In this document: positions 799 to 21,344 of the stretch, in pieces | How positions within the stretch are numbered: position 1 is the stretch's first letter | Layout of the letters: each line of letters starts with the position of its first letter | DNA from: a virus | IMG/VR virus record: IMGVR_UViG_3300025282_002284 | Location: 1-22,381 of that record | Direction: 5' to 3' (one strand) | DNA length: 22,381 nt | Notes under the pieces: model-generated | Database searches by the model: none | What the model was told of the DNA's origin: nothing | What the model saw: only the letters and a program-made list of their open reading frames with translations | Program-made: the position numbers and the translations under genes

Positions 799-1665
799 AT
801 GAATGAAGCACAACGCTACCCACTGACTGGTCAACAAGTCTTCTGGGACAACGCACCCACACCCCGTGAGGATCTTCGGAAGGTTCTCGATGCCCACCAA
901 CTGTCTGCTCTGCTGCCAGACGAGGTGACCAACGAGAAGGCTCTTAGGCAGGCGCTCTCTGTCCTCACTAGTGAGCTTTCGATTCCCGACGGACACGCAT
1001 GGTACATCCGTGGGCTGAAGCACCTCAAGATGAATGGCTACGAGGTCAAGCTGGAAGTGAAGGACGAGACTGAGAACGGTGCTACTCAGGCATTCCGTGT
1101 CAAGATCGTCAACCGTATCGTTGTCATTGAGAATGATACCCTGTCTTTCTCTCTGGTTCCCACGGTTACGGGAGCCAAGCAGCAGAGGCTTCAGGAACTC
1201 TACGATAAAGCCAAGGCTACCGTGCCTGGTGCTGACGTTGGAGCCATCCTGACCAGAATCCTGAAGACCTATCGCCCGATGGTCGTAGCACTACGTCCAA
1301 TGGGCGGGCTGTACTGGATTCCGGACGTACACAAGGTTGCGTTCGAGTCCTTCTGCGATGACCTGTTGGCTGCGTGTCCCGGCAACGTAGTCACTCCCAT
1401 GAACTGGGAGATGACTCCCAAGGGACTGAGCCGTGTCAAGGACAGCATGCTCAAAGAGATGCAGAAGGAGTGCCAGTCACTCCTGAGTGACATCCTCGGT
1501 GGCACGCTTGGACACGAGGCTATGGACAACAGGCTGAGACGGTGCATCGAGCTTCAGGATGAAGTCACACACTCTGACGAGATACTCGGTGAGTTCAGTA
1601 GCACTCTCAACACGATACTGGATTCAGCGAGACAGGCTGCGACACACGGACTGCTGACCTGCTAG
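799..1665 (+). CDS. DUF6744-like phage protein
   Basis: 288 aa. The start at 799 is chosen because AAGGA (786-790) lies 8 nt upstream; in-frame codons back to 613 would run through the previous gene. The protein is soluble and mixed alpha/beta, with no signal peptide or membrane segment. The central RPMGGLYWIPD stretch (about residues 168-178) resembles phage proteins grouped as DUF6744, which precede AAA+ ATPases in some phages; this is from memory and tentative. The C-terminal third is helical with many acidic and basic residues. The gene lies 43 nt upstream of the MoxR-type ATPase and probably shares its transcript. Biochemical function is unknown. Confidence 0.8.
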   Translation: MNEAQRYPLTGQQVFWDNAPTPREDLRKVLDAHQLSALLPDEVTNEKALRQALSVLTSELSIPDGHAWYIRGLKHLKMNGYEVKLEVKDETENGATQAFRVKIVNRIVVIENDTLSFSLVPTVTGAKQQRLQELYDKAKATVPGADVGAILTRILKTYRPMVVALRPMGGLYWIPDVHKVAFESFCDDLLAACPGNVVTPMNWEMTPKGLSRVKDSMLKEMQKECQSLLSDILGGTLGHEAMDNRLRRCIELQDEVTHSDEILGEFSSTLNTILDSARQAATHGLLTC

Positions 1666-1708: not shown

Positions 1709-2890
1709 ATGGTATCAATGGCTAATGCTGCGGGCTGGGTGACAGCCCAAGTGGGTGAGACTCCCCTGTTCTCTGGGCCACCTGGCTCAGTGAAGACCGA
1801 GGTTGCCAAGGCTTTCGTCAGGTGGGCTGGAAGAAAGCCATTCTGCCTGATTGGGTCGATCATCGACGCGCCTGACGTGGGTGGCTACCCCGGCGTCGTT
1901 GAGTCGGATGGCAAGCGGTACTGTGAGATGATGCCGCTTGACTGGGCCATGAAGACACACGAGCAACCCTCTGCTCTCATCATCGACGAGCTGACTACCA
2001 GCCCGCCACCTGTTCAGGCTGCCATGCTTCGCATCATCTGCGAACGCAAGATTGGCAACTTCGACCTGCCTGCTGACCTGTGGATCATCTCCATGTGCAA
2101 CCCTCCGGGCTGTGCAGCCAACGGGTTCGAGCTTGAGCCTCCGATGGCTAACAGGCTGGGTCACTACACCTGGAAGACTCCGTGGGACACGGTGATGGCT
2201 GGGTGGAAGAACGGGCTGAACTTCCCTGACCTTGAGTACCCCAAGGTTCCTGAGAACTGGATGGAATACCAGCCAGCCATCGGGAACCTCTGTGCCGCCT
2301 TCCGTGAGCGGAAGCCTGAGTTGTTCGAGCCTGCTACCGACAGTGCCGGCAACATGAAGCTCTCTGACTCTGATCAGGGTGGTGCATACGGGACTGCCCG
2401 TAGCTGGACTGCTCTCCAGAAAGTCTGGGCTGGCCTTGAGGCTGTCGGTCTGGGTGACGAGGAGAAGTTTGAGGCTGGTGCAGCCTACGTTGGTGTCGAT
2501 GCTGCTGCTGAGTTCGCCACCTACTGCAAGGAACTGGACCTGCCTGATCCTGAAGCGTGGCTGGCTCGGTTCCATGCCGACCCTGCTGCTGACTTCACTC
2601 CTCTGGACAGGCCGGACCTGACGATTGCTTTCCTTGGCAGCCTGGAATACGCCGTCAAGGAAAACAACACCAAGGAACGGTGGGAAGCAGCGATGGGTCT
2701 TCTCAACAGCCTTGTCACCAAGCCGGGCCAGAAGGTGTTTGTCACGGAGTCTGCAAGGTCACTCCATGGCGACGACAAGAACGGTGAGAAGATTGTCAAG
2801 AACAACTACAACCTGCCTGCATCACTCGGCGTGGAGCTTCAGTCCATGCTGCGTGCCAGGCTCAACGTCAGTGACAGAGGGAGTGAGTGA
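1709..2890 (+). CDS. MoxR-type AAA+ ATPase
   Basis: 393 aa. The ATG has AAGGAG 8 nt upstream. Visible ATPase parts, in order: Walker A GPPGSVKT (residues 23-30), Walker B ALIIDE with the Asp-Glu pair at 93-94, sensor-1 Asn at 131 in MCNPP, and a conserved Arg at 149 in LEPPMANR. This order fits the MoxR/RavA branch, chaperone-like ATPases that work with von Willebrand factor A (VWA) partners, and the next gene is exactly such a partner. The stop codon overlaps that gene's ATG by 1 nt, implying translational coupling. The C-terminal 200 residues are helical and unassigned. In cellular MoxR-VWA pairs the role is metal insertion or protein remodelling; the phage substrate is unknown. Confidence 0.88.
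   Translation: MVSMANAAGWVTAQVGETPLFSGPPGSVKTEVAKAFVRWAGRKPFCLIGSIIDAPDVGGYPGVVESDGKRYCEMMPLDWAMKTHEQPSALIIDELTTSPPPVQAAMLRIICERKIGNFDLPADLWIISMCNPPGCAANGFELEPPMANRLGHYTWKTPWDTVMAGWKNGLNFPDLEYPKVPENWMEYQPAIGNLCAAFRERKPELFEPATDSAGNMKLSDSDQGGAYGTARSWTALQKVWAGLEAVGLGDEEKFEAGAAYVGVDAAAEFATYCKELDLPDPEAWLARFHADPAADFTPLDRPDLTIAFLGSLEYAVKENNTKERWEAAMGLLNSLVTKPGQKVFVTESARSLHGDDKNGEKIVKNNYNLPASLGVELQSMLRARLNVSDRGSE
2123..2150 (+). repeat. 28-bp segment shared with the gene at 492-785 (copy 2)
   Basis: Partner of 624-651. It encodes GFELEPPMA, just ahead of the conserved Asn-Arg of the MoxR-type ATPase. Confidence 0.7.
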
Positions 2891-4134
2891 TGACTAACAA
2901 GTTTGGACTCGACGAGAGTAGGTTCGCAGTTTATCAACAACTGCCCTACTTACAGAGGCACATGAACTCGCTGATGCCGGTGGAGTCACCGGGTCTGGGT
3001 ACATTTGCCATGGATCAGTACGGTCGTATCTACTACGACCCTGCCCTGTTCGATGAGTGGACACTGAAAGAGTGCGGTGGAGTATGTCTCCACGAGCTAC
3101 TCCACGACGTACTCAACCACTGTGGCAGGGCGAAGGAACTGTTTGGGGATCACCCCTCACAGGAACAGCTTGAGAAGTGGAACATTGCCTGCGACATGGT
3201 AATCAATACCATCGTCAGGGATGCCAACTTCAAGCTGCCGGAAGGCTGCGTCTGGCCCAAGAACTACGGGTTCGAGGAAGGCTTGACTGAGCTGGAGTAT
3301 TACGAAGCCCTGCCAGACAAGCCTGAGCAGGAAAAGAGGCCGGGACGTAAGGAGCCTGGTGACGGTGACGGTGGTGAGGGAGATGGTCAAGGTGATCCTA
3401 GCGACCCACCAGAAGGTGGCTCCTGCTCTGATGGGCAGGACAGGGACTGGGAACTTGGCCCACCCACCGATGCGAACCCCGGCATGAACGGGGTGGACAA
3501 GAAGATTCTTCAGTCGCAGACAGCCAAGGCTGCTGAAGAACACTCCAAGACCAAGGGTTCGCTGCCGGGTGCTATTGGCCGCCTGTGCGACGATATCCTG
3601 CGTCCGACTGTTGACCCCAAGAAGCTGCTCCAAGCGGCTGTGAGGTACGCTGTTGCCTCTGTGAGGGGCCATCAGAACCTGAACTGGAAGCGTCCGTCAC
3701 GCCGGCAGGTTGCCGGGTGCGGGATGCTGCCTTCCAGACAGGACCCTCTGCCCAAGGTTGCTATCCTGGCGGACACGTCAGGCAGCATGGACAAGAGGGA
3801 CCTGAGTATGTCACTCGGTGTCATCGACAAGGTTCTGAACGCACACCAGACGAGCATCACCGTCTACGCTGGCGATGCTTCACTGGGTGTGGCACAGGAT
3901 GTCTTCGACGTGAAGAAGGTTGAGTTCGATCAGGGTGGTGGAGGCACTAGGATGGGTGAACTCGCTACCGAGATCCAGGAACTCTCTGACCCTGATGTCA
4001 TCATCATCTGTACCGATGGTGAGACTGGCTGGCCAGACGCAAAGCTACGGGCAAAGACCGTGGCCTGCGTTACCCGTGAGTCAGACTCCTACCCTGTACC
4101 TGACTGGATGACGAAGGTTCAGCTTGAAGTCTGA
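2890..4134 (+). CDS. VWA protein with metallopeptidase-like N-terminus (DUF2201-like)
   Basis: 414 aa. The ATG at 2890 overlaps the ATPase stop by 1 nt (TGATG); a GAGGGAG ribosome site lies upstream. The N-terminal part has a zinc-type motif HELLHDVLNH (residues 68-77, HExxH with a third His). A Gly/Asp-rich low-complexity linker follows at roughly residues 155-200. The C-terminal VWA domain shows the MIDAS motif DTSGS (295-299) and a CTDGE segment (Asp376) for metal coordination. The arrangement matches putative metallopeptidase/VWA proteins (DUF2201 type) that sit beside MoxR ATPases. The pair probably forms a remodelling complex in the cytoplasm; no signal peptide is seen. Whether the peptidase site is active is unknown. 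Confidence 0.88.
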   Translation: MTNKFGLDESRFAVYQQLPYLQRHMNSLMPVESPGLGTFAMDQYGRIYYDPALFDEWTLKECGGVCLHELLHDVLNHCGRAKELFGDHPSQEQLEKWNIACDMVINTIVRDANFKLPEGCVWPKNYGFEEGLTELEYYEALPDKPEQEKRPGRKEPGDGDGGEGDGQGDPSDPPEGGSCSDGQDRDWELGPPTDANPGMNGVDKKILQSQTAKAAEEHSKTKGSLPGAIGRLCDDILRPTVDPKKLLQAAVRYAVASVRGHQNLNWKRPSRRQVAGCGMLPSRQDPLPKVAILADTSGSMDKRDLSMSLGVIDKVLNAHQTSITVYAGDASLGVAQDVFDVKKVEFDQGGGGTRMGELATEIQELSDPDVIIICTDGETGWPDAKLRAKTVACVTRESDSYPVPDWMTKVQLEV

Positions 4135-4255: not shown

Positions 4256-4720
4256 ATGAACAAGCCGCCAAGAAAGATAGTCGAATACAATTTCGAGCGT
4301 GAGCTTAGGGACGTACTCAAGAGACTCGAGGAGTCGAACGATAGACGCATAGCCAGACGCAATGCCAGACGTGCTGCCAGTGGGCTTCTAGCACGGATGC
4401 AGAATCACATTCAGAATACTTATCCCGCCATAGGCAAGGATGGCAGAGAAGTAAAGACACCCGAGCGTATCAAGTGTCCCGATTGTGACACTGTATGTGG
4501 CTCTGGGTTTGGCCTGGTACAGCACATCATGACTAAGCACCCCGGTATGATACAGGCACGCGACCAGCACCTTGGAAAACAACTACGCTGCGTATGTGAC
4601 AGGACATTCAAGGGTAAGACAGGTCTAGCTGCCCACCTGGCTCACCAACACAGGAGTGGGACACTCAAGTCTCACTGGACAATCGGCAGCACAACCATGT
4701 TCTTGGAAGGAAAGATATGA
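4256..4720 (+). CDS. Small protein with two C2H2-type zinc fingers
   Basis: 154 aa. The N-terminal half is basic and helical (many Arg at residues 30-40). Two zinc-finger-like units follow: C74-x2-C77-x12-H90-x4-H95, and C112-x-C114 with H127-x4-H132. The second has a shortened CxC instead of CxxC but keeps the Gly-Leu-x-x-His signature. Nucleic-acid binding is likely; the target is unknown. The in-frame ORF extends back to 4124 inside the VWA gene and through the hairpin, so I take the ATG at 4256, although it has no clear ribosome site. The stop overlaps the next start by 4 nt (ATGA). Both this gene and the next begin with ATGAACAAGCCG. Confidence 0.75.
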   Translation: MNKPPRKIVEYNFERELRDVLKRLEESNDRRIARRNARRAASGLLARMQNHIQNTYPAIGKDGREVKTPERIKCPDCDTVCGSGFGLVQHIMTKHPGMIQARDQHLGKQLRCVCDRTFKGKTGLAAHLAHQHRSGTLKSHWTIGSTTMFLEGKI

Positions 4721-8822: not shown

Positions 8823-9292
8823 GGTTCCACCGTAGCCTTGATCTCACCCTCGACTGATTCGATGAGCAAATCGAACTCTATCGGCGTGACTTTTTGGTCT
8901 CCAGGACCATGGGGTTTGGACGACTCGGGATTCTCCACCAGGGCAGGGGTTTGGACGACGCTATTCTCGGCAGGTGCTGCCGCGTCCGTGAGCATTTGCA
9001 TTCCGACAGTTCCAAGTCCACCCGCCCCGAGCAAACTTGCGGCCAACAGTGCGCCCTTGAGAAGTCCGCCGTTGTTGTGAACGACGGTGTTGTTGGCAGG
9101 GTGAGATGGATATGTTCCCACGTCGATGTCCCCCAACCCCATGGCCATGGCCTCCGACTTCCTTCTTATCTTCAGACGGTGTTCCACGTCATGCGCCCAA
9201 AGATTCGACAGCAGCGACCTCGCTTCCCTAGCTGATGCTGCCGTCGCCGCCGCTTCCGTCACGCACTTGTGGTGTGGGTGGCTCTCCGTCAT
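8819..9292 (-). CDS. Hypothetical protein with one hydrophobic segment
   Basis: 157 aa. The ATG at 9292 has AGGAGA at good spacing. The N-terminal 50 residues are polar and Ala-rich. A hydrophobic Gly/Ala/Leu segment beginning GLLKGALLAASLLGAGGLG (about residues 75-100) may span a membrane. A polar Pro/Glu tail follows. Family not recognised; lying between lysis-type genes and the nuclease, it could be virion- or membrane-associated. The coding sequence contains two direct copies of GGGGTTTGGACGAC in different reading frames. The start lies 65 nt inside the preceding gene's 3' end. Confidence 0.65.
   Translation of the reverse strand: MTESHPHHKCVTEAAATAASAREARSLLSNLWAHDVEHRLKIRRKSEAMAMGLGDIDVGTYPSHPANNTVVHNNGGLLKGALLAASLLGAGGLGTVGMQMLTDAAAPAENSVVQTPALVENPESSKPHGPGDQKVTPIEFDLLIESVEGEIKATVEP
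8911..8924 (+). repeat. Dispersed repeat GGGGTTTGGACGAC, copy 1
   Basis: Exact 14-mer, also at 8946-8959 and 11077-11090. It lies inside a minus-strand gene, in a different codon frame from copy 2, so it is a DNA-level and not a protein-level repeat. Confidence 0.75.
8946..8960 (+). repeat. Dispersed repeat GGGGTTTGGACGACG, copy 2
   Basis: Direct repeat of copy 1, 35 bp away. It is preceded by GGCA, as is the shorter minus-strand version at 10585-10597. Confidence 0.75.
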
Positions 9293-9502: not shown

Positions 9503-9703
9503 CTAACCGGCGTTGATGGGTGCTTCACGGTGCATGATCTGCCGGATGGCAGCGGCCTGCACGGGATCAGTCTCGGCATGCAGCTTGAGCATGACCCGAT
9601 CTAGGATCGCCATGAAGTTCGTGCTGGCATCCGACTGTCGTGCCAGCCGCTCGCCACTTGCTGCCGTCAGCAACTCTTGGAGGTTCACATTTCCTTCGGC
9701 CAT
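9503..9703 (-). CDS. Hypothetical protein, 66 aa
   Basis: The ATG at 9703 overlaps the protease stop by 1 nt (TAATG) and has AAGGGAGA upstream. An in-frame extension to 9763 would lie inside the protease gene and is rejected. The protein is helical (MAEGNVNLQELLTAASGERL), with no recognised motif. It is translationally coupled to the protease, so it may be a virion or lysis accessory. Confidence 0.65.
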   Translation of the reverse strand: MAEGNVNLQELLTAASGERLARQSDASTNFMAILDRVMLKLHAETDPVQAAAIRQIMHREAPINAG

Positions 9704-10677
9704 TACTCTGTCTCCCTTGGAACCAGACGCAAGCGGACCCGCGCCTTGAAGTTGGTCGTCCATTCTTCAAGATCAGACAACCGTCTGTTGATGTCAGTCG
9801 TGCTGGCGTCGGCTCCGTCCGTGCCATTCGCGCCGTCTTTTCCTGCCGGACCCACCGGCCCAACAAACTTATCTTTGTTGTCCACAAAAAATTTTGTGAT
9901 GCCCTGGAGAGTTACGACGTCCTTACCCCTTGTGTGCTCTTGGGATTCGAGCATGTCGATCCGTGCCTGCAACGCCGCGATGGTTTTCTCAAGCCTCTCG
10001 ATGGCCTCAGCCATCTTGTCATCGCTGCCTAGCCTGTCGGGTCGGGCGTAACCTTCCACGAACGCAGCCAGTTGACTTGGTGTAGCGGCGTAGGCTTCCG
10101 TGTCCTCATCACTACCATGGGAGATGACACCTACCAGTTCCCCGGCCTTGTTGAATACCCCGCCACCACTGTCACCGTTGCCGAACTTCCCCTCCTTCAC
10201 GGAGTAGTGGGCGCGGAGAACCTTGAGGTTGCTGGGGGTGGTGGTCCCGATATAGCTGAAGACCTTGGGCCGAAGTGTCTTGCCTGCCCGGAATCCGTAT
10301 GCCCTGACGAACACCTCCGGGCGGGGTAACGACGACGCAATTCTCCCAGGTGCAGCCGGCATTTTTGTAACTTTTGGTAACACATCTGTCACCACGAACA
10401 TCGCCAGATCATATTGCCCGTCAACGCGGACCCACTTGGCAGCGTGCTTCGTGCCATGCCGGTCATAGACAGTGACCGACTTGCCGACCTCGGCTCCGCA
10501 ATGTGCCACGGTCAGGCCCACTGTCTTATCACCAAGGCGGACAAGCGTGCCGGAACAACCCGCCACCCGCACACTAGCATCCTCTGTCGTAACCCCTGCC
10601 AGGTACCGTGGGGTTTCGGCAGCGGCCAAGGCTACGCAGAGAGCCAGTGCTGCCAAGGTTGTCAGTGTGCGTGCCAT
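9703..10677 (-). CDS. Secreted trypsin-like serine protease with coiled coil and collagen-like segment
   Basis: 324 aa. An N-terminal signal peptide (hydrophobic residues about 5-20, AAA-E cleavage-like) suggests export. The catalytic triad is clear: His59 in LTVAHCG, Asp90 in YDLAMF, Ser170 in GNGDSGGGVF. After the protease domain (to about 215) come a helical, probably coiled-coil stretch (about 218-250) and a Gly-x-y run (GPVGPAGKDGANGTDGADA, about 276-294), then a second short helix. The tail resembles trimerising elements of phage fibres, so a virion-attached or envelope-acting protease is possible. It lies next to the holin-like gene. The codons for residues 27-31 contain one copy of the AGGGGTTACGACA repeat. 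Confidence 0.85.
   Translation of the reverse strand: MARTLTTLAALALCVALAAAETPRYLAGVTTEDASVRVAGCSGTLVRLGDKTVGLTVAHCGAEVGKSVTVYDRHGTKHAAKWVRVDGQYDLAMFVVTDVLPKVTKMPAAPGRIASSLPRPEVFVRAYGFRAGKTLRPKVFSYIGTTTPSNLKVLRAHYSVKEGKFGNGDSGGGVFNKAGELVGVISHGSDEDTEAYAATPSQLAAFVEGYARPDRLGSDDKMAEAIERLEKTIAALQARIDMLESQEHTRGKDVVTLQGITKFFVDNKDKFVGPVGPAGKDGANGTDGADASTTDINRRLSDLEEWTTNFKARVRLRLVPRETE
10585..10597 (-). repeat. Dispersed repeat AGGGGTTACGACA inside the protease gene
   Basis: Exact 13-mer shared with 9465-9477 and 15669-15681, preceded by CCTGGC on the minus strand. That preceding block is shared with 12490-12503. Confidence 0.65.
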
Positions 10678-10684
10678 GACCCAC

Positions 10685-10714
10685 AGTCTAGTACCGGCCT
10701 AGACCGTGTGTCAA
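10685..10714 (-). promoter_or_regulatory. Possible promoter for the protease operon
   Basis: On the minus strand, TTGACA (10709-10714) is followed after 18 bp by TAGACT (10685-10690), 7-8 nt ahead of the protease ATG. The -10 matches consensus at 4 of 6 positions. Transcripts would start at or very near the ATG. The -35 overlaps the holin stop codon. Confidence 0.3.
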
Positions 10715-10911
10715 CTGTCGTCCTTCTTGCCGTTCGCAAGTTTCCGTTTGAGTGCCTCGAATCCCCCGGCCAGAATCATCAGTTCAACGATGGTCGTAAT
10801 CTCAGTCTCGTCAAACGTGGCAGCGTTGAGGTACAGAAAGACTGTGACCCCTGCAAACATGATGACCAGACGGATGAGTGACCAGACGGGATGCTCTGTG
10901 TCGCGTGGCAT
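10711..10911 (-). CDS. Holin-like membrane protein
   Basis: 66 aa. ATG with a strong AAGGAGG ribosome site. Two hydrophobic segments, about residues 11-28 (LIRLVIMFAGVTVFLYL) and 38-52 (IVELMILAGGF), are separated by an acidic turn, with a basic, then acidic C-terminus (KRKLANGKKDDS). Size and topology fit small two-helix phage holins, which permeabilise the inner membrane. Neighbours (secreted protease, another membrane protein) agree with a lysis or envelope cassette, but no endolysin is recognised here. The upstream leader is covered by a candidate antisense RNA on the plus strand. Confidence 0.7.
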   Translation of the reverse strand: MPRDTEHPVWSLIRLVIMFAGVTVFLYLNAATFDETEITTIVELMILAGGFEALKRKLANGKKDDS

Positions 10912-10921
10912 GATGCCTCCT

Positions 10922-10930
10922 TGCTACAAT
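10922..10930 (+). promoter_or_regulatory. Extended -10 promoter for the small RNA
   Basis: TGCTACAAT (10922-10930) is an extended -10 (TGnTACAAT). The -35 region is poor, as is usual with extended -10 elements. A start about 7 nt downstream would be near 10937. It overlaps the holin ribosome site on the other strand. Confidence 0.45.
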
Positions 10931-10936
10931 GGTGGG

Positions 10937-11003
10937 ATGCCCAGACGCCAGAGGGATCTCACGGTCTGGGACAGGTGGGCCACGGACGGCCCGCCGATTT
11001 TTT
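10937..11003 (+). ncRNA. Candidate two-hairpin small RNA with ANGGA loops, antisense to the holin leader
   Basis: After an extended -10, a hairpin CCCAGAC/GTCTGGG (10940-10946/10964-10970) contains an inner GAG-GGAT-CTC, exposing AGGGAT. A second hairpin GGTGGGCC/GGCCCGCC (10974-10981/10988-10995, one G-T pair) has the loop ACGGAC and runs into TTTTTT (10998-11003): a textbook intrinsic terminator. Size about 67 nt. Both loop regions contain ANGGA, the core recognised by CsrA/RsmA, and this phage encodes a CsrA homologue. The RNA is fully complementary to the leader of the holin gene. An ATG at 10937 opens a plus ORF through the terminator, but a non-coding RNA fits better. Inference, not proven. 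Confidence 0.5.
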
Positions 11004-11009
11004 ATAACA
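11001..11009 (-). promoter_or_regulatory. Possible extended -10 promoter for the holin gene
   Basis: On the minus strand TGTTATAAA (TGnTATAAA) lies opposite the T-run of the small RNA. A start near 10994 would give a holin leader of about 80 nt covering the whole small-RNA region. No good -35 is seen. Confidence 0.3.
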
Positions 11010-11050: not shown

Positions 11051-11096
11051 CGTCGTCCGAACCCTTGCGCGCGCGAGGGGTTTGGACGACGATTTT
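11051..11096 (+). repeat. Near-perfect 16-bp inverted pair of the dispersed repeat, followed by TTTT
   Basis: CGTCGTCCGAACCC (11051-11064) faces GGGTTTGGACGACG (11078-11091), with one G-T pair. The stem extends by two more pairs around a GCGCGCGCG loop, and ATTTT follows on the plus strand. It could act as a plus-strand terminator, an RNA structure or a protein-binding palindrome. It lies in the 234-nt gap 10912-11145 between two membrane-protein genes. Confidence 0.75.
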
Positions 11097-16210: not shown

Positions 16211-16402
16211 CTACCTCGCTTGTTGCTCATCATGTTGCACTTTGGCAGCGACCTCTCCTCGCAGGATTGATACATCCTCGGGGAAGTCGAACCCCAGCTT
16301 GGCCTTGCCGTCCAAGGTCCGTATCAGAATCACCGTGGACACCCGACCCTGTCCATCGGTCAGGTTCACACGACCCTCATCACGCACCGTTAGAACCAGC
16401 AT
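16211..16402 (-). CDS. csrA: CsrA-like carbon storage regulator homologue
   Basis: 63 aa. The start at 16402 gives MLVLTVRDEGR, the classic CsrA opening, with GGAGG 6-7 nt upstream; in-frame codons back to 16444 are inside the previous gene. The rest matches CsrA strand by strand: VSTVILIRTLDGKAKLGFDFP, then EDVSILRGEV with Arg48 in the place of the RNA-binding Arg44. The length is also typical (about 60 aa). CsrA dimers bind ANGGA motifs in mRNA leaders and small RNAs and control translation. The GGAGGATGG just ahead of its own start could allow autoregulation. It lies between a basic protein gene and the Rad52-like gene in the early operon. Confidence 0.82.
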   Translation of the reverse strand: MLVLTVRDEGRVNLTDGQGRVSTVILIRTLDGKAKLGFDFPEDVSILRGEVAAKVQHDEQQAR

Positions 16403-17327: not shown

Positions 17328-20300
17328 CTAGTAGAGTTGTGCTCTGCGAGCCTCCTCGGCCCGCTCCCTGGCTCGCTTGGCAAGCATACGCTTCAGGTTC
17401 ATGATAAGCTCTGCCTGCTCCCTCTCACCCGGAGCCATTGTAGCAATCACTTCCTCTGGCAGGTAGACGTTCCGGAATGTTTTGCCGCCCGGTATCTCCA
17501 GGATAGCTTCCTCGGCAGCCTCTCTAAGCAGAGCCTCCTGTGTCCTCGGTGGCAGATCGCTCACCCGGAAGCCTGTGCCCAGGTTCGCCATCGTACCAAG
17601 CACACCCTTCCGTGGGTCGGTCAGTGTTCTAGCTGTGGTCAGGAACCTGGAGAAGGGACTGTTGAGCATCAGGTGCTCGAAGGTCTGGTTGACCAGAGGA
17701 TCAACCCTGCCCGTCCTCTGCCCCGTCATCAGGTCACTGATGTTAGCCATGGTCCTGCCCATGGTCGGGTCCAGGTCAGTCAGCGGACGTCCGCCCATCG
17801 GACCCTTCTGGAAGAACGTCTGTCCCGTGGCTGTCTCACCAAGGAACTTGAGCATGGGGTTGAGGCGAGATGCCGTCTCCATCAAGGGGTTCGTGAGGAC
17901 CTCTCCGCCCGTGGTGGGCATGAAGGTGAACGGGTCCATGGACATCAGGTCCAGGGTTGTCAGGTATCTAGGATCACCTTTCGGACCCTGCATCATTTCC
18001 GGCAGCTCAACAGCCATTGACTGTTGCAGGTACTCTGGGAGAGGACGTGTCTGGTCGCCCTTCAGGTGGCGGGTGCCGCGCACCACCTTCGCCAGCCTTC
18101 CACCAGGTCGTTCCGCCAGCTCCTTGATTACGAAGGGCATCTGCCTGCTGGAGAACTTGTAGAATGGGAACAGTCTCTGAGCTATCTCCCTCTCGAACGC
18201 CGTGTATGCCTTGGACGAGTAGTCCACCTGCGCTGCATTGATCCGCTTCATGGCTGCCGCCGGGTCAATGCCACGCCTCAACGACTCGATGAACGGGGTC
18301 AGTCGGTTGAGGTCCTCAACGTACTGGCCCAGCATTTCACCGGCAGCCGATGGACCGTACCCGGACACAGCCCTGCCGCTGACACCACGCTGCTCTGTCA
18401 GCATGGACCTGACATTCAGAGGGCCACTAGCTTCCGGAACCTTCTTACCAAAACCGAACCACGTTCCTATCATTTCGGGAATCGTCGCAGGCGCGTCCGT
18501 GCCGCCAATACCACCGACGTATCTGCCGCCAATCCCCTCCGTCAACGCCTCGCCCGTCACATCGTCTACGTTCGAGACAGCACCAGCCCGCTCGAACACC
18601 TCGCCCATCTGACGCTTGGGAGACTGGACATAATACATCTCGCGTATCAGGTCCGTTGCAACCTCGTCGTTCAAGGCCCTGGTTTCCACGCCCCTTGCAA
18701 GCCTGTCCGCGTGCATCCTCCGCACAGCGGCGAGGCCCGATGCGCCCTCCATCACCCCGCCCTTGGCGACGTGCCTCGCTGTTAGTAGTGCTCCAGGCAT
18801 ACGGTGCAGCTCCACCAGCCCGGCCACCCAGTTCCTGATCTGTCCGGAGATGCCGTTGCGTGTATGGAACGCCAGCCACGGTGCGGTCAGCATCCCCTTT
18901 ATCATGTTAGTAGCACTGTCAAAGCTCTTGGCAATCTCGCCAACGACCTCGGGATTCCTGAACGACTGGTGGAACCGGGTCAGGTCGTCCGCCAAGTCAG
19001 CAGGAACGTGCATCTTTGAGATTTCCCTGATGACCTTCGACATTTCCTCCGGGTCATCGACGTGCCTGCCCATCAGCTTGGCTATCTTCTGGTAAACCTC
19101 AGCCCCTTCTCCTGTCTCCTTGACGAACCGGGTAGACTTCAGCTTCAGCGACGAAACCAACTCGCTGACCGTCTTGCTCCCCTCGCTGGTCGCTGTTGTG
19201 GCCTTGGAGGCGAGGGTCCTGACGGCTGCCTTGGTGCTCTCGATGTAGTCATTGAACGTACTGACACGACGGGTCAGGGCACTGACCGGATCAACGTAGA
19301 TGCCAGCCTGCATCATGTCCGGGTCCATCCCCTTCATCCATTGCGCCAGCTCCTCCCACCTGTTTGCCTGGCTGGCTCCCGCTACCACCTCAGTGATCAC
19401 CTCTCCCGTCGCCGGGTCCCTGGTGAACGAGGTGGTCTTCATCTCCTCAAAAATATCGTCAGCCAGATGCCCCCAGCGGTCACCAAGATGCTGTGCCGCA
19501 TCGTCCATCTTGCCTGTCTCAAGGAGACGGGACAGGTGCGGGTCCTGTGTCATCTCCCTGAGTGCGCCTGTGCCGGACTCCTCGAACCCTCGGGTGAACG
19601 CCACTCTCCCCGCAAGGTGAGGGTCCGCCCCGTACAGGGGGCCACGGGAACCGGCGGCCTCGGCACCCTCTTTCGCCACCAGCCTGGCGAAGTATTCTTC
19701 GGGAGCTATGAACTCATCTATATCGTCCAATCGCCTCTGGGCTGCATCAATGGCCATTGACCTGTCCAGAGACTCCACGGTCGGGAACGCGCCTGGAGGC
19801 AGCGCCCCCGGTAGTTCCTCGGCTGCCGCTAAAGCCTTCTCGGCATCTACTCTGCGCGCTAATTGCTCTGAGGCTTCATGGCCGTACAGCTCCATGAAGT
19901 TGGCACCCCACTCGTCCGCATCACCCTTCATTGAGCCGAGGGTTTTCCGGACGCTTGCCACCATGTCGAAAGTTTCCTGGCTGATGCCTTTCGTCAGCAG
20001 CAAATCCTCTGGCATTTCCATCAGCTTGTATGTCGCCGTGACCACGTCCGGGTGAGACATCAACGCCCTGTCGGTATCCCTCGTGAGGGACTTCAGGGCA
20101 TCCTTGTCGAAGCCCTTGGTCATCAACGCCCCGGTGTCAGGGTCGGTGTACCTGACCCATGCCTGTCCGGTGTCCTCGATCTTAAGAACCTTGGCATTGG
20201 CGGGAAGGTCGAGACCTGATACCCAGTCCCCCTCGATGGGTATTCCTTCCTCCAGCCCTGCCCTCATCTCATGGAGAGGACGTTCAAAATCATGAACCAG

Positions 20301-21344
20301 CTCAAGGTCTTCCAGGTTCCTGCCAAGCACCGTCTCCATCTCGCTGCCGGCTTCCCTGCCGAGCACCTCTGCCTGGACCTTCTTGTCATACAGTGCCTGA
20401 GCGGTTTTCTGCCCAGCCTCCGTTGTCGTGTCCATCACGCTGGGCCTGAACAGCCTGCTCAAAGCCCGGCCAGCACCCGTCTTGTATCTCAGGTGATTGC
20501 CGAACGCATCCAGCACTGCGTCAGCCCGCTTCCCTGTAAACGGTATGGGTGGCGCACCCATGTGCAGGGCAGGCATGCCCGGAGCCTTCCACCGGGCGAA
20601 GCTGCCTACTGGGTCGTAAAGGATATCGTCAAGGTTCTGTCCTACGTCAGTAGCGGCTTCCGAGAACAGCTTACGCTGCCCAATTGCAACTTCCCCCTGC
20701 CTCGCCAAGTCCGAACCGGCGTCCATCATCTCGTCGGAATACTTCATCATGTCAAACGGAGTCACCTCGCTGCGTGCCTGGCGGGCACCAATCTGGGTGA
20801 CTTCATCAAACGCTTCCGATAAAGTCTTGCCGCTTTTCTCAGCAGTCTCTCTCGCTGTCCACGCTGCTGCCTCCATAGCCGCATCATCCATTCCGGCCAC
20901 AGATTTCCTGGTGGCAACCTTGGCTATGTCGTCCCACTTGCCCATGTGCTTCACCACCTGCCCCCCCTTGGTGGCAGCACTAGCCCCAAGAGACAGGTAG
21001 GTCAGCGGGTCAAGCAGCACCTCCGCTGCGAAGCCTGTCAGACCCGGCGTCCACCCGGATTCGTCCCTGTCAAATCCGAACAGCTCTTGACCGGATGTCC
21101 TGCCCTCCTGGCTGGTCCAGTTCCACGGCAGTAGCTGGTCAAGAGGATTCTCCAGAGCGAGGATGTCACGAACCATGGACCCCGGAATGTCCAGTATGTT
21201 CGCTGCACCTGTCAGCCCACTGATGCCACGCTGCACCAGTGACCTGTTGATCTCCTCCTCCTCCCAAGGAGCGAGATCACGGTCCTCCATGTGGCGGGCC
21301 GATCTACCAAGAGTGGGGAGCGTTGGGAGTATGGGGAGTCGCAT
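17328..21344 (-). CDS. Very large virion-type protein (1338 aa, polyvalent/internal virion protein-like)
   Basis: 1338 aa, mostly helical and Ala/Glu/Arg-rich. Near the N-terminus GLTGFAAEVLLDPLTYLSLG (about 101-120) is a hydrophobic segment seen in large phage internal virion proteins. At about 815-850 APWLAFHTRNGISGQIRNWV and at about 1030-1075 AQVDYSSKAYTAFEREIAQR followed by LFPFYKFSSRQMPF resemble segments of phage large polyvalent proteins that precede a Phe/Pro-rich membrane-type region. These proteins are thought to be carried in the virion and ejected with DNA. No enzyme motif recognised. The start is uncertain: ATG 21344 is 2 nt after the previous stop with only GGGTAG upstream; Met19 is an alternative. 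Confidence 0.75.
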   Translation of the reverse strand: MRLPILPTLPTLGRSARHMEDRDLAPWEEEEINRSLVQRGISGLTGAANILDIPGSMVRDILALENPLDQLLPWNWTSQEGRTSGQELFGFDRDESGWTPGLTGFAAEVLLDPLTYLSLGASAATKGGQVVKHMGKWDDIAKVATRKSVAGMDDAAMEAAAWTARETAEKSGKTLSEAFDEVTQIGARQARSEVTPFDMMKYSDEMMDAGSDLARQGEVAIGQRKLFSEAATDVGQNLDDILYDPVGSFARWKAPGMPALHMGAPPIPFTGKRADAVLDAFGNHLRYKTGAGRALSRLFRPSVMDTTTEAGQKTAQALYDKKVQAEVLGREAGSEMETVLGRNLEDLELVHDFERPLHEMRAGLEEGIPIEGDWVSGLDLPANAKVLKIEDTGQAWVRYTDPDTGALMTKGFDKDALKSLTRDTDRALMSHPDVVTATYKLMEMPEDLLLTKGISQETFDMVASVRKTLGSMKGDADEWGANFMELYGHEASEQLARRVDAEKALAAAEELPGALPPGAFPTVESLDRSMAIDAAQRRLDDIDEFIAPEEYFARLVAKEGAEAAGSRGPLYGADPHLAGRVAFTRGFEESGTGALREMTQDPHLSRLLETGKMDDAAQHLGDRWGHLADDIFEEMKTTSFTRDPATGEVITEVVAGASQANRWEELAQWMKGMDPDMMQAGIYVDPVSALTRRVSTFNDYIESTKAAVRTLASKATTATSEGSKTVSELVSSLKLKSTRFVKETGEGAEVYQKIAKLMGRHVDDPEEMSKVIREISKMHVPADLADDLTRFHQSFRNPEVVGEIAKSFDSATNMIKGMLTAPWLAFHTRNGISGQIRNWVAGLVELHRMPGALLTARHVAKGGVMEGASGLAAVRRMHADRLARGVETRALNDEVATDLIREMYYVQSPKRQMGEVFERAGAVSNVDDVTGEALTEGIGGRYVGGIGGTDAPATIPEMIGTWFGFGKKVPEASGPLNVRSMLTEQRGVSGRAVSGYGPSAAGEMLGQYVEDLNRLTPFIESLRRGIDPAAAMKRINAAQVDYSSKAYTAFEREIAQRLFPFYKFSSRQMPFVIKELAERPGGRLAKVVRGTRHLKGDQTRPLPEYLQQSMAVELPEMMQGPKGDPRYLTTLDLMSMDPFTFMPTTGGEVLTNPLMETASRLNPMLKFLGETATGQTFFQKGPMGGRPLTDLDPTMGRTMANISDLMTGQRTGRVDPLVNQTFEHLMLNSPFSRFLTTARTLTDPRKGVLGTMANLGTGFRVSDLPPRTQEALLREAAEEAILEIPGGKTFRNVYLPEEVIATMAPGEREQAELIMNLKRMLAKRARERAEEARRAQLY

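Follow-up and report, generated by a model that had tools for sequence, protein, structure and literature searches.

Genes for CsrA are known from phages and plasmids, and this raises the question of how a mobile element itself switches such a CsrA on and off. In excerpts of a survey of csrA in phages, 30 of 2517 phages carried the gene and no phage decoy RNA is mentioned (PMC7366521), while for RsmQ, the CsrA homologue of plasmid pQBR103, excerpts of a separate report describe binding to ANGGA at hairpin apices and a preference for ACGGA there (PMC9928087). Here we address this question at a locus in a viral DNA stretch of 22,381 nucleotides (IMG/VR record IMGVR_UViG_3300025282_002284, hereafter the window), in which a csrA gene lies 5.3 kb from a compact element with two hairpins. 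A preliminary description of this element had proposed a small RNA that pairs with the leader of a holin mRNA, binds CsrA, or both, and thereby acts as a lysis-timing switch.

A compact element with two looped ANGGA sites

The element lies on the plus strand and is surrounded by a block of minus-strand genes (Table 1). All of the parts named in the preliminary description are present in the sequence, namely an extended -10, a 7-bp hairpin with AGGGA, a hairpin with an ACGGAC loop, and a T6 run; no -35 is recognisable upstream of TGCTACAAT on the plus strand. The two ANGGA sites of the predicted RNA are spaced 30 bases apart. Positions 10937-11003 fold at -34.1 kcal/mol (z -4.3), with none of the shuffled sequences equally stable, and a terminator finder also detected hairpin 2. 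Two looped ANGGA sites were obtained in 2 of 1500 dinucleotide shuffles of the element, which is also the most stable stretch with a double looped ANGGA on either strand of the whole window. Single ANGGA hairpins occur about once per 10 kb, which is near the chance frequency and reflects little enrichment in these genomes, and the case for the element thus depends on the two sites occurring together in one short, bounded unit, on where that unit lies, and on how well it is conserved. Assignment of the element to a plus-strand gene was considered and rejected, there being no plus-strand gene downstream of it in the window.

Table 1 Features of the window and of two outlying relatives
Feature	Position	Strand	Remarks
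Predicted small RNA, ~67 nt	10937..11003	+	start inferred from -10, end from T-run
Extended -10 of the RNA, TGCTACAAT	10922..10930	+	sequence; TACAAT at 10925-10930
Hairpin 1	10940..10970	+	7-bp stem CCCAGAC/GTCTGGG (10940-10946/10964-10970); ANGGA site AGGGA at 10952-10956
Hairpin 2, intrinsic terminator	10974..11003	+	T6 tail 10998-11003
Stem of hairpin 2, GGTGGGCC/GGCCCGCC	10974-10981/10988-10995	+	8 bp, one U-G
Hexaloop of hairpin 2, ACGGAC	10982-10987	+	
Opposing extended -10, TGTTATAAA	11001..11009	-	read from 11009; overlaps T-tail of the RNA; conserved only in some members of group A
Membrane-protein gene	10711..10911	-	66 aa, single hydrophobic segment; "holin" of the preliminary description, identity unproven
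Shine-Dalgarno of membrane-protein gene, CCTCCTT as read on +	10916-10922		shares one base with the RNA promoter
Trypsin-like protease with collagen-like stretch	9703-10677	-	directly downstream of membrane-protein gene; conserved in relatives
Phage csrA	16211..16402	-	63 aa from MLVL; PF02599 E=2.4e-7, above Pfam cut-off
Two looped ANGGA sites in csrA coding region	16297-16366	-	
14-mer GTCGTCCAAACCCC	8911-8924, 8946-8959, 11077-11090	-	
14-mer GTCGTCCAAACCCC	11052-11065	+	
Palindrome containing GTCGTCCAAACCCC	11051-11091		conserved in group A
1338-aa protein	17328-21344	-	
AAA ATPase, then DUF2201 metallopeptidase/VWA-like protein	1709-4134	+	ATPase: phrog_1297
HTH (Cro/CI-like) gene, L010	about 1040-1300	-	
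HTH (Cro/CI-like) gene, L095	about 4440-4640	-	

Other features of the window were also recorded. The 14-mer GTCGTCCAAACCCC is present in three exact copies and one with two changes, against 0.23 expected, and two of its copies fall in a strong palindrome that may be an operator or another recognition site. The 1338-aa protein matches nothing in Pfam or in cultured phages, and its one PHROG similarity is weak (E=0.011). The AAA ATPase and the VWA-like protein that follows it form a pair in the style of MoxR-VWA.

Conservation in uncultured relatives

Cultured phages yielded neither a DNA-level match to the window nor a relative of the 66-aa membrane protein encoded beside the element. Scans of viral contigs with this protein and with a 67-aa protein encoded two genes further on recovered about 20 related records, and the element is conserved beside this small membrane-protein gene in related uncultured phages. 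The order in the relatives examined is rusA, sometimes a gene for a 99-aa membrane protein, the element, the 66-aa membrane protein, a trypsin-like protein with collagen-like repeats, the 67-aa protein, and a nuclease-like protein. In a genome collection the membrane protein had no true relative, a short match in a Bacteroidetes bin being the one hit, and for this reason no host is assigned. A DNA pattern joining the promoter and ACGGA, when searched in viral contigs, matched mostly one recurrent phage coding sequence besides the known relatives, together with a few unrelated places that lack the membrane-protein gene neighbourhood.

Group A (the window, L003, L004-L006, and L007-L009) retains the -10, both hairpins, and the T-tail, and the plan of L004-L006 and L007-L009 is that of the window. 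The -10 word TGCTACAAT is identical in L004 and L007. Between the window and L004, the stem of hairpin 1 changes from CCAGAC/GTCTGG to CCAGCC/GGCTGG and its loop is also altered, with ANGGA kept as the site passes from AGGGA to ACGGA. In the terminator stem, 24 of 24 cells are paired across three variants, and the changes comprise one double compensatory replacement and two G-U pairs.

The layout has fully diverged in group B (L024-L027, L029-L032, L075, L091, and L092, with L028 left out; L010 and L028 are one virus record). Here a three-way junction with a GC-rich closing stem bears two ANGGA hairpins at a spacing of exactly 18 bases, and the sole varying base in the hairpin cores TCATCANGGATGA and GGGGANGGATCCCC is the N of ANGGA, which is A, C, or T. 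The -10 reads TTGTTATAAT in most of the group and TTGTTATACT in L027. Promoter and terminator signals of their own are both present in the group A sequences, whereas group B has no T-tail or other terminator, and the 3′ end of its predicted RNA is unexplained by sequence signals. Three further records (L093, L094, and L104) were matched at 41.7 bits (E ~1e-9) by a model derived from group B; they have a different hairpin 1 stem (AGTC/GACT; AGUC/GACU in the RNA) around a site that is still ACGGA, and in L093 the homologous fold lies 3.3 kcal/mol above the best fold and is thus not the minimum-energy structure.

Two outliers complete the set. In L010 the terminator hairpin is unrelated in sequence and has the loop AGGGAC and a T5 run, and L095 has a hairpin with the loop ACGGAC; in both, the one full ANGGA is accompanied by a plain GGA as second site, and the -10 is weak or absent. 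On the RNA strand of both, an HTH gene begins about 20-30 bases past the ANGGA hairpin, so the element could be a leader there.

Across the relatives, a -10 of the form TGNTAYAAT/TATAAT persists, and looped ANGGA sites occur in both hairpins in the window, L004, L007, and group B. Scored by lineage, such a pair appeared in 0-6 of 1500 shuffles; L010, scored on one site only because it has one full ANGGA and one GGA, gave 47 of 1500. Covariation points in the right direction but is weak, with shuffle controls not significantly exceeded and few distinct sequences available.

The strand of the predicted RNA

Hairpins of this kind can form on either strand. The -10, the T-tail of group A, the invariant loops that match ANGGA, and the changes in the stems all point to the strand antisense to the membrane-protein gene as that of the RNA. 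Where only one side of a stem varies, 5 of 5 positions give G-U on this strand and would give A-C on the other, which corresponds to about 0.03 by a sign test on few distinct sequences. One caveat applies to group B, in which the second hairpin shares sequence with the end of rusA, encoded on the opposite strand, and the varying N doubles as the third position of a rusA codon.

Linkage to csrA

The CsrA homologue that the preliminary description had placed about 5 kb away was confirmed by Pfam (Table 1). Among 26 related records searched, csrA was detected in 12. The 14 others are short, do not reach past about 5 kb upstream of the membrane-protein gene, or lack that gene, while 12 of the 12 records that reach beyond about 5 kb upstream have csrA; every record able to show the gene therefore has it. 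In two group B records, the coordinates place csrA about 7.6 kb upstream of the membrane-protein gene.

The CsrA proteins of groups A and B share 32-39% identity, and L4 and the arginine at the position of E. coli R44 do not vary among them. Both L4 and R44 of CsrA contact RNA. R44 is also cited in excerpts of two papers (PMC7652899, PMC9928087). CsrA can span two sites separated by 10 to 63 bases and does so best above 18 (reviewed in PMC7652899), and the spacings of 30 bases in the window and 18 bases in group B lie within this range. In three unrelated phages with csrA, one of them covered over 49 of 64 kb, no double-ANGGA structure of comparable stability was found. By comparison, then, the proposal of a CsrA-type RNA gains support in that the ANGGA loops are kept while stems and flanks change, and this in phages that encode csrA.

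Two observations concern the csrA gene itself. Its coding region in the window contains two looped ANGGA sites, which could hint at autoregulation, and around the second strand the group A proteins are longer by a few residues than those of group B and E. coli CsrA.

The membrane-protein gene and the opposing promoter

The neighbouring gene, described earlier as a holin, has no holin family match in Pfam or PHROG; its product has a single hydrophobic segment, and in one group the gene lies directly behind rusA. The complementarity between the RNA and the leader of this gene is real, but it follows from the geometry of the locus, and the predicted start of the RNA leaves a gap of about 15 bases to the Shine-Dalgarno, which thus lies outside it. 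An extended -10 on the opposing strand is likewise present in the window, as had been noted, but it is not general: it occurs also in L007, is degraded in L004 through loss of TG, and is absent from L010 and group B. As the holin identity is unsupported, the opposing promoter not conserved, and the RNA predicted not to reach the ribosome-binding site, the lysis-timing switch is unsupported and is speculation. The RNA could possibly still affect the membrane-protein gene in cis as an antisense.

Comparison with known RNAs

Neither the curated nor relaxed thresholds of Rfam brought up a credible covariance-model match, whether to RsmX, RsmY, RsmZ, RsmW, CsrB, and TwoAYGGAY or to any other family. 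An alignment between the terminator hairpin of the window and one RsmW hairpin was not significant (13.4 bits, E=4.8). Like the CsrA decoys RsmX/RsmY/RsmZ/RsmW and CsrB/CsrC, the predicted RNA is non-coding and presents ANGGA in hairpin loops, including that of the terminator; unlike them, it is phage-encoded, has only two sites in about 67 nt, and falls below the curated Rfam cut-offs. TwoAYGGAY RNA (RF01731), which has two hairpins with AYGGAY loops and for which CsrA sequestration has been proposed (PMC4333381, PMC2864571), shares the two ANGGA-type hairpins, but its model spans 168 positions in another layout and gave no match to the element even at E up to 10. We file the element as a candidate CsrA-decoy RNA, alike in proposed function to RsmY/Z, CsrB, and TwoAYGGAY and outside all Rfam models.

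The excerpts concerning RsmQ and phage csrA (PMC9928087, PMC7366521) resemble the present case in that a mobile element has its own CsrA/RsmA; they describe the protein and no decoy RNA from the same element. A search of the open-access literature turned up no report of a phage-encoded RNA that acts as a decoy for CsrA, which does not in itself prove novelty. The c4 RNAs of P1/P7 are cis-antisense phage RNAs (cited in PMC2864571) and are likewise short, structured, and antisense to a phage message, but nothing here indicates that pairing is the function of the window RNA, and its conserved feature is the predicted protein-binding loop.

Discussion

Comparison among relatives supports the structure, the conserved motif, the strand, and the linkage to csrA. 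We consider it probable, judging from these features of the sequence, that positions 10937-11003 on the plus strand encode a minimal decoy RNA of the RsmY/CsrB kind, which would capture one CsrA dimer of the phage and perhaps of the host. Synthesis of this short non-coding RNA would be driven by an extended -10 and stopped by a terminator that both belong to the element, and the ANGGA in each hairpin, at the 30-base spacing, would allow one RNA to hold both faces of one CsrA dimer. When made, the RNA would take phage CsrA, and possibly that of the host, off its mRNA targets, as RsmX/Y/Z or CsrB do. We infer transcription, CsrA binding, titration, and the existence of responding mRNAs. Two sites are few compared with classical CsrB, and titration would need high expression. 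Also counting against this reading are the missing T-tail of group B and the overlap of its second hairpin with rusA, the single full ANGGA and weak or absent -10 of L010 and L095, the small covariation counts, and the suboptimal homologous fold of L093.

That the RNA instead acts in cis, by pairing with the membrane-protein leader or through collision of its promoter with transcription of the membrane-protein gene, so as to set the level of that gene, with any CsrA binding incidental, appears unlikely. In all relatives the RNA lies antisense to the sequence that immediately precedes the membrane-protein gene, its -10 overlaps the ribosome-binding site of that gene, and an opposing -10 faces it in the window and L007; however, the uncovered Shine-Dalgarno and the loss or degradation of the opposing -10 elsewhere argue against this, and pure pairing leaves unexplained both the retention of ANGGA loops amid stem change and the G-U pairs confined to the RNA strand. 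The geometry of the locus together with the CsrA motifs would also be consistent with a decoy whose CsrA binding governs its pairing with the membrane-protein mRNA, making a CsrA-dependent switch, but nothing ties CsrA to this gene, which has no holin match, and we regard such a dual role as quite improbable.

The HTH genes of L010 and L095 suggest a further origin, in which an HTH regulator gene once had the hairpins as its leader or attenuator under CsrA control, and they have outlasted the gene where it was lost. This is very unlikely, given that no gene follows on the RNA strand in the window, group A, or group B, where the structure is best conserved. The chance frequency of single ANGGA hairpins would allow an ordinary terminator beside a fortuitous hairpin, with no dedicated RNA, but several lineages have two looped sites and a promoter at the equivalent position, joined in group A by a terminator, and coincidence is the least plausible account.

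Returning to the decoy RNA, it is about an even call whether it forms, with the phage's own CsrA, a self-contained Csr circuit with a dedicated two-site decoy that times phage genes or overrides the Csr system of the host. If the decoy reading is true, the RNA would be a very small CsrA decoy, with just two ANGGA sites, encoded near the csrA of the same phage. The two would constitute a directly testable control circuit and would provide a guide to where other phages bearing csrA may encode decoy RNAs.
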